Assembly (NCBI GenBank): GCA_903911355.1
Contig: CAIWDD010000114.1
Location: 1 to 64,000 of the forward strand
DNA from: an uncultured Nodularia sp.
GTDB lineage: Bacteria; Cyanobacteriota; Cyanobacteriia; Cyanobacteriales; Nostocaceae
Direction of reading: 5' to 3'
Length of the DNA: 64,000 bases
Positions 54,716-59,810 of the stretch are shown piece by piece. Within the stretch, counting starts at the first letter, position 1. Each line of letters begins with the position of its first letter. The notes below the pieces were generated by a model, which did no database searches, was not told where the DNA came from, and saw only the letters and a list, made by a program, of their open reading frames with translations. The position numbers and the translations under genes are program-made.

Positions 54716-56365
<1,650 letters not shown>

Positions 56366-56387
56366 TACTCTCTAAGTCACATAAGTT

Positions 56388-56427
56388 AAAAAACAGCTAC
56401 TTCTCGCGTGGAGGTGGCTGTTTTTTT
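56388..56427 (+). terminator. Intrinsic terminator of groESL
   Basis: AAAAAACAGC (56388-56397) pairs with GCTGTTTTTT (56417-56426). Some inner pairing (TAC/GTGG region) precedes a T-rich tail. It starts about 22 bp after the groEL stop and insulates the following operon. Confidence 0.8.
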
Positions 56428-56544
56428 GTTTCATGCAAAGGGAAGCAGATCCGGGGGTGGAAAGTCGGTTGGATATTGCTTTATGTTAAAAAAATCCTGG
56501 TTTAATAATATACTGATCAAGCTTCAACTTTAACTTTAATAAGT

Positions 56545-56937
56545 ATGGAAGATTACCAGGCAGCTTTTCTTGATCGCCATCTTGATACTGAAACACTAGA
56601 CCCCATAAGGAAAATTGGGGCTATGCACTTTGGTGGTATAACCATTGAGTGTCTGATAAAAGCAATTATTTGTAACACTCTACCAGAAGTTACAGGTCAG
56701 AACTTGAGGACACATAGTTATACAGAACTTCTGAAACAACATAATAAACTTAAATCTAAAATTGATAATTTTTCAGAAGTCAGAAGATGGCTTGATCAAG
56801 TTGAGAATCCAATGGGACAACACTTCATAGATATGCGTTATTGTGGACTTGAGCCTGATGAATTAAATTACAAACGCTGGTTACACGCATACAAAAGTGT
56901 AAGAAGTTGGTTATTGAAACAAGCTACTCAACTTTAA
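56545..56937 (+). CDS. HEPN-like small protein, partner of the downstream double ATPase
   Basis: The 130-residue all-helical protein has the hallmark layout of HEPN domains. One helix contains AMHFGGITIECLIKAII, corresponding to the H-x-GY-x2-EC-x-KA helix of HEPN proteins. It is followed by THSYTELLKQHNKL (the HdL-x2-LL element) and a C-terminal pair of helices with MRYCG and WLHAYKSVRSWLLKQ. HEPN proteins are often RNases using an R-x4-6-H motif in the C-terminal part. I see no such motif there, only R22-x5-H28 in an early helix, so catalytic activity is doubtful. It lies 12 bp upstream of the large ATPase gene with a good ribosome binding site between, so the two form an operon. Confidence 0.72.
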   Translation: MEDYQAAFLDRHLDTETLDPIRKIGAMHFGGITIECLIKAIICNTLPEVTGQNLRTHSYTELLKQHNKLKSKIDNFSEVRRWLDQVENPMGQHFIDMRYCGLEPDELNYKRWLHAYKSVRSWLLKQATQL

Positions 56938-56949
56938 AAAGGTGGGAAA

Positions 56950-59634
56950 ATGCAGGAAAATTGGCAATCTTTACTCAAGCAGCACATTACAAGCCAATAT
57001 GTGCAGAATCCACAGGAGTGGGTTGATGTAAATATTTCTACATCCGGCTTGATCAATCTGACTATTGTTAGCGATCGCTTTATTAATTTATCTACCCCTC
57101 AGCGTAAAGAACAAATATCAAGCTTACTTAAATCTGAGGTTCCTCATTTATCTCCTGGATTTCTTTCCTTATATACGGTTCAACAAGGAGATTCACTGAA
57201 CATTTCACCACCACCGATTATCAATGCTGCATCAGTAAATACTTGGCAAGATTTAGCTATCCAAGCAGCAAATCCTCAAAATCAATCACCCCCACCCCAT
57301 CGCGAACTGACTTTACCCAGGACAGTGACATTCTATTCCTTTAAAGGAGGAGTAGGACGCACTACAGCATTAACTCATGTTGCTTGGATTTTAGCAATGC
57401 GGGGACATAAAGTTGTAGCTGTTGATTTAGATTTAGAAGCACCGGGTTTAAGTACAGCATTTAACCTCAAACCACAACCAAAATATGGAATTGTTGATTA
57501 TTTTTATGAGCGTTCCTACTTACCAGAGGGAATAGATCCTAAGATTTCAATTACTCAGATATTTGGTGAAGTGAAAATATCTAATGCCACAGGTAGATTA
57601 TTTGTTGTTCCTGCTGGTTATCTTAATCTTGATTATATTTCTAAGGTTGACGATCTCCGTGCTACTACTGTTATTGATGGAAATCAAAGTCTTTGGTCTG
57701 TTTTCAAGGGTGAAATTTACGAACATTTAAAACCGGATATTATCTTAATTGATTCCAGAACTGGAATTAATCAATGGGGAGCTTTATCATTAATTCAAGC
57801 TGCTGACGAAGCGATTATTTTTCTTTTTCCTAATGAACAAAATAAACAAGGAATACAATTACTTTTACAATCACTTCAAAATATCAAAAAATTAGCAATT
57901 AAGTTTGTTTTTTCTCCCGTATTGGATATTAATCATGAAGATGTTTCCTCAAAAATAAACCATATTTTTAATTCATTGCTAAATAGGATAAATACAGCAA
58001 CAAATGAAAATTTTGAAGCAGATGAAGATGAATCGGATTTAGATAATTACCAAGATACAATAATAGAGAAACCTTTAGTAATTCCATACTTTACAGCAAT
58101 TGCTATAGCTGATAATTATCCTGTACAAGCTTTTATAAATTACTATAATAAAATTGCCAACTGGATTGATGAAGAAACTGATGAACTTCAACGCAGAAAT
58201 ATTTTAAGTAATTCAGATCAACGTTGGAAAATTATTGAAAGCTTGCAATTTCCTGAAGCAAATGCTGCTGATACAAACAATTGGAGTTTACTATTTCAGC
58301 GTACCACTGATTTTGAAAAATTTTTAGATGATACTACCTGTTTGATAAGAGGACGAAAAGGAACAGGTAAAACTGCTTTGTATTCGCTTTTTCTTAAACA
58401 CGAAAGTGTTGCTCGAAAATTAGCTCATGGACGTTTGGATAATAGTGTATTTTTTTCAGCTCATGGTCGCTTTAAAGAAAGCCGTCCCTCTCGTGATGAA
58501 TTCCAAAGCATCCATACAAGTTTGAAACATAATGATGGTTCATGGGAAGCTTTTTGGAGGGCTTATTTACTGCTTAGGTGTCATCAAGAAGATTTATTTA
58601 AATTCCCTAGAAGTACAAAGTTTACCGGATTGAAAGAAATTATTAAAAAGTTGCCTAAAGAAGGATGGCCTTCTGAAACTACACAAGCCTTACTAAAATT
58701 ATCTACTGATTCTGATCTGCGACTTATCGTCAAAGATGTCATAGATATCATTAATCAAACAGCGACAAATAACTCTCAAAAACTGTGGTTTCTTTATGAT
58801 GATTTAGATGAAGACTTTCGTGAAGCAGGAGAATTAAGACAGCAAGCGCTCACTGGCTTATTTCAATTAGTTCAGTCTTGTGATGCCAACAGATTAACAG
58901 CAATTAGGTTTAAAATTTTCTTGAGAGAAGATATATGGAATCGCTTAATTTTTGACAACAGAAGTCATTTCAACGGACGTGATATTCTTTTACAGTGGAC
59001 CAGGGTGGATTTTTTACGATTAGCACTCCGCCAAGTAATACAATCTAAAGATTTCAAAAACTTGGTTGATAAATTCTCTCCTGTTGCTGTGGAAAGTATT
59101 GATCAAGCTAGTGAAGAAGTAATTGATAAAGCCTTAGAATTACTTTGGGGAAGTCGTCGCAGAACAGGAGACAAAGCTAAATATGTATCCAGATGGGTTT
59201 ATGAAAGATTAACAGATTCAAGTGGTACCACTTTTCCTCGAAGTCTCAGTATATTATTAGAAGGAGCAAAAGACCAAGAATTAAGCTATAAAGGAAAATC
59301 ATCGATTCAACCACCAAGTGACCGTTTACTGCGAAGTAAATCTTTAGAAATTGGTTTGAAGAAAGCATCGGAAAAACGCTGTGATGAAATAAAAGAAGAA
59401 TATCCTCATTTGGATAAATTTTTTGGCTCCCTCAAACAGAAATCAGCCTTTTTAACCGAAGAAGAATTACATACTATATGGCGAGAATCAGCCCATGATA
59501 TATCAGAATTTAAAGAGTTCACTTCTTTTTTAAGTGAAATTGGTATTATTGAATGGCGAGAAAAAAAGAAAACCTATAAAGTTGCTGATATATATGTGTA
59601 TGGTTTTGACATGATTCGTCAAGGCGCAGTATAA
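56950..59634 (+). CDS. BolA-like/KGGVGR ParA-type/STAND-like double ATPase
   Basis: The 894-residue protein has four parts. Residues 20-85 (LINLTIVSDRF and QRKEQISSLL) resemble a BolA-type fold. Residues 122-410 form a ParA/MinD-type domain with deviant P-loop F131-KGGVGRTT (signature K132, R137 replacing the P-loop Lys), VVAVDLDLEAPGLS and DIILIDSRTG (263-272). Residues 445-770 hold a second P-loop ATPase with RGRKGTGKT (467-475), Walker B WFLYDDLDED (613-622) and sensor FLRED (657-661). It is similar to the Sll1717 ATPase family and STAND NTPases. Residues 838-894 look like a winged helix ending VADIYVYGFDMIRQG. AAGGTGG precedes the ATG. The AT-rich gene sits with its HEPN-like partner between groEL and ureD. 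A conflict or defence role is inference. Confidence 0.8.
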   Translation: MQENWQSLLKQHITSQYVQNPQEWVDVNISTSGLINLTIVSDRFINLSTPQRKEQISSLLKSEVPHLSPGFLSLYTVQQGDSLNISPPPIINAASVNTWQDLAIQAANPQNQSPPPHRELTLPRTVTFYSFKGGVGRTTALTHVAWILAMRGHKVVAVDLDLEAPGLSTAFNLKPQPKYGIVDYFYERSYLPEGIDPKISITQIFGEVKISNATGRLFVVPAGYLNLDYISKVDDLRATTVIDGNQSLWSVFKGEIYEHLKPDIILIDSRTGINQWGALSLIQAADEAIIFLFPNEQNKQGIQLLLQSLQNIKKLAIKFVFSPVLDINHEDVSSKINHIFNSLLNRINTATNENFEADEDESDLDNYQDTIIEKPLVIPYFTAIAIADNYPVQAFINYYNKIANWIDEETDELQRRNILSNSDQRWKIIESLQFPEANAADTNNWSLLFQRTTDFEKFLDDTTCLIRGRKGTGKTALYSLFLKHESVARKLAHGRLDNSVFFSAHGRFKESRPSRDEFQSIHTSLKHNDGSWEAFWRAYLLLRCHQEDLFKFPRSTKFTGLKEIIKKLPKEGWPSETTQALLKLSTDSDLRLIVKDVIDIINQTATNNSQKLWFLYDDLDEDFREAGELRQQALTGLFQLVQSCDANRLTAIRFKIFLREDIWNRLIFDNRSHFNGRDILLQWTRVDFLRLALRQVIQSKDFKNLVDKFSPVAVESIDQASEEVIDKALELLWGSRRRTGDKAKYVSRWVYERLTDSSGTTFPRSLSILLEGAKDQELSYKGKSSIQPPSDRLLRSKSLEIGLKKASEKRCDEIKEEYPHLDKFFGSLKQKSAFLTEEELHTIWRESAHDISEFKEFTSFLSEIGIIEWREKKKTYKVADIYVYGFDMIRQGAV

Positions 59635-59719
59635 CAAAAAAATTTGTATTTCTATCCAGTTTGGTTCGACAATTTTTACGGGAGTATATTATAAAACAGT
59701 GTGTAATTTAATAATTTTT

Positions 59720-59741
59720 AGAGGCGTTACGTAGAACCTCT
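59720..59741 (+). terminator. Weak hairpin between the double-ATPase gene and ureD
   Basis: AGAGG (59720-59724) pairs with CCTCT (59737-59741) around CGTTACGTAGAA, with AT-rich flanks. It lies 86 bp after the stop and 70 bp before ureD. It could end the operon or be part of a small repeat. Confidence 0.35.
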
Positions 59742-59810
59742 CTAAATATTTCATAATCTTTATATCTTGAATGATAAAGTTACAATGAGACAAACTTTAT
59801 CAATTTATAA

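Follow-up and report, generated by a model that had tools for sequence, protein, structure and literature searches.

A HEPN-fold protein and its double-ATPase partner between groEL and ureD of Nodularia: a fused form of the candidate system PDC-M28 with a predicted role in defence

The window, a 64,000-nucleotide stretch of DNA from an uncultured Nodularia sp., includes two plus-strand genes arranged head to tail: (i) a HEPN-type ORF of 130 aa (56545-56937) and (ii) an ATPase ORF of 894 aa (56950-59634). The first-pass annotation had placed these ORFs, with a 12-bp gap between them, between the groEL terminator and the urease cluster, and this arrangement is confirmed: groES-groEL lie upstream, ureD, ureA, ureB and ureC lie downstream, and a strong terminator stands between groEL and the HEPN-ATPase pair. 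With groEL and ureDABC as its neighbours, the pair is adjoined by no defence gene in the window and is not inside a BREX or restriction-modification (RM) operon. Both ORFs are considered real genes because their frames are kept full-length and uninterrupted in other genera and the partner is adjacent in 27 of 27 cyanobacterial fused loci. Promoter-like sites are no more frequent in the accessory segment than in shuffled sequence. The features of the locus are as follows.

56388..56426, + strand: intrinsic terminator of groEL (17-pair stem and T-run), left edge of the accessory segment
56425..59809, no strand: accessory segment, missing where groEL runs directly into ureD (genomes G017 and G008)
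56545..56937, + strand: small gene for a HEPN-fold, PDC-M28A-like protein, the predicted effector (AlphaFold2 pLDDT 93.4; HEPN structures rank first in VIA, Z 11.7-9.8; PDC-M28A, 1.2e-4)
56647..56649, + strand: codon of E35, invariant acidic residue of helix 2 (81/82 relatives)
56713..56715, + strand: codon of H57, candidate alternative active-site His between helices 2 and 3 (82/82; PMC3710099)
56836..56841, + strand: codons of R98-Y99, end of the penultimate helix (82/82)
56950..59634, + strand: large gene for the 894-aa double NTPase, a fusion of PDC-M28B and PDC-M28C (NCBIfam, PADLOC)
56950..57303, + strand: N-terminal alpha/beta domain, aa 1-118 (AlphaFold2 secondary structure; BolA label unsupported)
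57310..58200, + strand: MinD/ParA (SIMIBI) NTPase domain, aa 121-417 (NF047398; FleN/MinD/Soj, Z 21)
57343-57360, + strand: KGGVGR P-loop with Arg for the P-loop Lys (GVGR[ST] in 74/74 aligned proteins)
58264..59595, + strand: Sll1717-family AAA+ domain, aa 439-882 (NF047389; Foldseek Cdc6/Orc 1fnn, 7e-6, and 1w5t, 1e-4)
58351-58374, + strand: Walker A GRKGTGKT of the AAA+ domain (Walker A Lys conserved)
58786-58812, + strand: Walker B of the AAA+ domain

The large protein carries two NTPase modules, as first annotated, and both score above the curated NCBIfam cutoffs: NF047398 (KGGVGR-motif ATPase) matches aa 123-310 with 172.9 bits (cutoff 90), and NF047389 (Sll1717 P-loop ATPase) matches aa 439-882 with 144.4 bits (cutoff 75). 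The first module has the MinD/ParA/Soj fold (FleN and MinD, Z 21), and its P-loop Lys is replaced by Arg in 74 of 74 aligned fused proteins, such that the MinD/ParA-like half is probably nucleotide-locked or slow. In the fused proteins displayed from the same alignment, the second P-loop reads KGTGK or KGSGK. The fold of the C-terminal ATPase is assigned from Foldseek matches of the whole-protein model (pLDDT 77.7), by which this half resembles Cdc6/Orc (1fnn, 7e-6; 1w5t, 1e-4). The earlier label STAND can be used only loosely, for an Orc/Cdc6-like AAA+ module; the STAND-type profiles AAA_16, NACHT and nSTAND fall below their cutoffs. The BolA-like label for the N-terminal domain is rejected (Pfam BolA, 15.1 bits versus a cutoff of 25.7).

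The HEPN-like label of the small protein is right. The window protein scores 17.4 bits against Pfam PF05168 (HEPN), below the cutoff of 22, but this family is matched by 28 of 39 relatives (best 4.8e-9); in the same set, four relatives weakly match AbiV-HEPN. A PDB sequence search with the small protein matches no HEPN directly, and a PDB profile search gives one marginal HEPN match (1wol, E 0.02). The AlphaFold2 model is confident (pLDDT 93.4). Foldseek gives it weak E-values, 0.2 at best, but the VIA list for this model is headed by HEPN structures, with sacsin (3o10; 119 residues, Z 11.7) followed by AF0298 (2hsb, 11.2), TM0613 (1o3u, 11.0) and ST0689 (10.7), all above the unrelated helical bundles of the list at about 6, with the caveat that helical bundles may by chance attain Z values like those of the HEPN matches. 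The modelled HEPN fold is secure when these Z scores are combined with the sequence matches of the relatives.

The classical Rx4-6H RNase motif is absent from the small HEPN and is found at the homologous position in 2 of 82 relatives. H57, R98 and Y99 are identical in 82/82 relatives and E35 is conserved in 81/82 (the remaining one is truncated), a count that includes the split copies of prophages and a third, strongly diverged group; this E-H-R-Y set is near invariant although overall identity among the HEPN relatives is very low. A further HEPN copy, L024, which is not among the 82, has Pro in place of R98. The AF0298-type HEPN-T and AbiV proteins are also without motif H and have instead a conserved His between helices 2 and 3, the Arg of the motif and a helix-2 acid (PMC3710099). 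The window family shares this fold (2hsb, Z 11.2) and layout, with the alternative upstream His in 82/82, the Arg in 82/82 and the helix-2 acid in 81/82, but differs in its obligate partner ATPase. Because the conserved residues follow this alternative layout, activity of the small HEPN is plausible: E35-H57-R98-Y99 fits the alternative active site proposed for the AF0298/AbiV HEPNs, and RNase activity is predicted.

The three parts of the PADLOC candidate PDC-M28 are matched in order in the window: M28A (HEPN; 1.2e-4), M28B (KGGVGR ATPase; 1.9e-40) and M28C (Sll1717 ATPase; 4.7e-27). While the components and their order are the same, the PDC-M28 models have separate B and C genes, whereas the window has one 894-aa ORF in which B and C are fused, and the window HEPN resembles M28A weakly. 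Cyanobacteria have both fused and split B/C forms. Judged by sequence, the window pair is the fused form of PDC-M28, a known but uncharacterised candidate. The first-pass annotation had spoken of an undescribed conflict system; the conflict-system part of this idea is well supported, but the components are already listed by PADLOC. A full-text search of the literature for PDC-M28, KGGVGR and Sll1717 found no paper. The PADLOC PDCs are unpublished candidates, some of which derive from guilt-by-embedding (PMC12988326, PMC11811056), and two others that were assayed, PDC-M63AB and PDC-S04, had no activity (PMC12409345).

The pairing of the two genes is near-obligatory. Of 292 evenly sampled cyanobacterial genomes, 27 have the fused ATPase, whole and truncated copies both being counted, and comparison of positions places a HEPN gene directly upstream in 27/27. 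Among the best 80 loci of GTDB representatives, which span Cyanobacteria, Chloroflexota, Bacillota, Actinomycetota, Proteobacteria and Bacteroidota, a HEPN partner is detected in 74, and two of the six loci without one have no upstream sequence. In many pairs the HEPN and ATPase genes overlap by 4 bp. Genome G036 carries a split A-B-C trio and, roughly 3 kb away, a fused copy; the same genome has a family HEPN without an ATPase (L175:6350-7128), which overlaps a 129-aa ORF. A diverged third form, in which a HEPN is paired with an ATPase of about 900-950 aa and E-H-R-Y is kept, is present in G001, the nearest relative of the window. Third-form loci (L179:3742-7100, L181:4514-7772 and L182:3990-7135) encode a HEPN-like protein of 144-168 aa and a KGGVGR ATPase of 904-952 aa; their HEPN is not recognised by PADLOC despite the E, H, R and Y residues. 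A search of plasmids gives a single full-length copy, and INPHARED phage genomes give short ParA-domain matches and nothing longer.

As a unit, 56425-59809 is cleanly present or absent, since homology of G017 to the window (flank aligned over 56162-56424) stops at 56424 and restarts at 59810; in G017 and G008, groEL is followed directly by ureD. A decayed HEPN relic lies in the groEL-ureD gap of G007. More generally, this gap (window 56425-59809, loci L127-L131) is variable in Nostocaceae, with the HEPN relic and hicAB-like, ParA-like, TnpB-like and methyltransferase-like ORFs. At about 20 loci of Nostocaceae, groEL lies no more than a few kb from the pair, which suggests long vertical retention at this site with repeated loss in the lineage. 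Elsewhere the pair is found beside other genes, such as atpC in Fischerella and Westiellopsis. A universal housekeeping gene is rejected by the patchy distribution and the empty sites, and the universal synteny across Nostocales that would have spoken against a conflict system is not seen (the pair is in 27/292 cyanobacterial genomes), though the pair is groEL-linked in much of Nostocaceae. In Calothrix NIES-3974 the large gene (L031:8265-12052, the same as L069) is split into three pieces and holds an inserted transposase-like ORF.

Between the window and its sister G001, 88% of the ATPase is shared but only 63% of the HEPN, and the HEPN and ATPase trees conflict with strong support; this disagreement indicates that HEPN alleles are exchanged between related loci. 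Two HEPN allele types, of about 130 and 144 aa, swap among closely related ATPase genes (window 56545-56937 versus L022:9731-10180).

Unlike the window copy, relatives of the pair are nested in defence operons of several kinds. In type 3 BREX of two Chloroflexota and Lamprocystis, the pair separates pglXI from brxHII, with pglZ next on contigs that reach far enough, and the Lamprocystis locus has a BrxC match at E=0. A type 1 locus of the same Lamprocystis genome reads brxA-brxB-brxC ... HEPN-ATPase-pglX-pglZ. The pair is within an Hma/DUF499 operon of Halomonas (HmaC-HmaB-HEPN-ATPase-PLD helicase), follows hsdR-hsdM-hsdS in a deltaproteobacterium and adjoins hsdR and a recombinase on a Nostoc plasmid. 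The split trio is found in viral/prophage contigs near integrase, replication or terminase genes (PDC-M28 E-values 1e-21 to 1e-137), a position comparable to the defence hot spot between the replication and packaging genes of P2-like phages (PMC9122126). Among the neighbours of 40 loci, 60 PADLOC families are matched at 1e-25 in 119 proteins versus 6 in 103 control proteins taken from the same genomes at distant positions (ten strong neighbour proteins were scanned apart), a small comparison that counts overlapping families and not independent loci and thus gives a direction, not a test statistic. Together with the near-obligatory pairing, patchiness, empty sites and relics, the embedding in operons for BREX, Hma and type I RM and the carriage by prophages support the conflict-system idea well.

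A function of the pair in defence generally is quite probable and well supported by context; the mechanism is what we infer, including complex formation, sensing, RNase activity and abortive infection. The fused PDC-M28 is proposed to be an accessory anti-phage module in which an ATPase-gated HEPN effector acts in an abortive-infection-like manner, a reading by analogy that is given a probability of about 0.55. The large protein would be a nucleotide-controlled switch, with its MinD/ParA-like and Orc/Cdc6-like AAA+ halves holding and gating the small HEPN. The ATPase halves may detect infection itself, or that a resident restriction or BREX system has been inhibited, upon which the activated HEPN would cleave or block RNA via E35-H57-R98-Y99; translation would stop, and the infected cell would become dormant or die. 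Against this reading count the missing Rx4-6H motif, by which the HEPN may be a non-catalytic RNA binder or adaptor, the window setting with no defence gene next to the pair, the long stay beside groEL in much of Nostocaceae, and the inactivity of the two assayed PDCs. PrrC/RloC and PARIS are RNA-directed backup effectors with an ATPase that are nested in restriction or BREX operons. An ATPase-gated effector is proposed here because of the analogy with PrrC, RloC, PARIS and the BREX backup effectors. Among the latter are the HEPN-DUF499 proteins (BREX-related type 1/Hma), backup effectors within BREX and BREX-related systems (PMC12839542). The window family shares with PrrC/RloC, PARIS and HEPN-DUF499 an RNA-directed (here predicted) backup effector, an ATPase and, in relatives, the restriction/BREX nesting, but differs in that the ATPases of those systems are of the ABC or DUF499 type and those of the pair are MinD-like and Orc-like.

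Other readings of the pair are less probable. A chromosomal toxin-antitoxin module, with the HEPN as toxin and the ParA/MinD-like ATPase as antitoxin, would work in stress response or in maintaining an element, rather than in sensing phage as such. This prediction was made for a different dyad, HEPN (MAE_18760) with a ParA/Soj-like ATPase (Anantharaman et al. 2013, PMC3710099), which likewise joins a small HEPN and a SIMIBI ATPase in one operon but belongs to another HEPN family with Rx4-6H conserved, and for which no second AAA+ module is described. The HEPN-MNT (HepT-MntA) toxin-antitoxin systems also share the HEPN fold and a two-gene operon, but the window pair has a double ATPase in place of the nucleotidyltransferase and is without Rx4-6H. 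While the small gene comes first, the ORFs are tightly coupled and TA-like genes (hicAB-like and vapBC-like, by sequence reading) occur in the groEL-ureD gap of relatives, an 894-aa antitoxin with two ATPases would be unusually large, and the BREX/Hma/RM nesting and prophage carriage are better explained by immunity, making a toxin-antitoxin rather unlikely. A non-defence role tied to the chaperonin locus, such as a stress regulator, draws on the nearness of groEL (a few kb at most) at about 20 loci of Nostocaceae; it is highly improbable, as the pair is missing from most relatives, clean groEL-ureD sites exist, the pair adjoins other genes elsewhere and a strong terminator separates it from groEL.

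Orc/Cdc6 and ParA relatives bind DNA. With both folds present in the large protein, the double ATPase could itself be the effector, acting on invader DNA via its Orc-like AAA+ module, and the HEPN could be an adaptor or a sensor of RNA or nucleotides. A non-catalytic, RNA-binding HEPN is suggested by the absence of Rx4-6H, and motif-less HEPNs were proposed as possibly RNA-binding (PMC3710099). By contrast, E, H, R and Y are near invariant while little else is conserved, which is more in keeping with a catalytic site than with a binding surface, and this division of labour is judged unlikely.

The proposal of an ATPase-gated HEPN effector can be extended, tentatively, to a transferable effector that backs up restriction systems, in which the E-H-R-Y HEPN ribonuclease is gated by a tandem MinD-like (Lys to Arg) and Orc-like switch and fires once BREX, Hma or type I RM has been disabled by a phage; its forms would be split (in prophages), fused (in cyanobacteria and BREX) and strongly diverged. 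Should the proposed module hold, the MinD/ParA-like module coupled to an Orc-like module would be an added type of ATPase controlling HEPN effectors, the family would allow the alternative HEPN active site, put forward in 2013, to be tested, and the pair would be among the few candidate immune modules of cyanobacteria that form blooms. That relatives are nested in no fewer than four different defence operons suggests a general layer of backup for BREX and restriction. The Lamprocystis genome (G353) has three copies, located in the type 3 BREX operon (L160), the type 1 BREX-like operon (L161) and a short contig (L174). In two purple sulfur bacteria (L161:2162-18110, in the type 1 BREX-like operon, and L105:1878-8265), the pair seemingly splits the N-terminal methyltransferase part of PglX from its C-terminal part.
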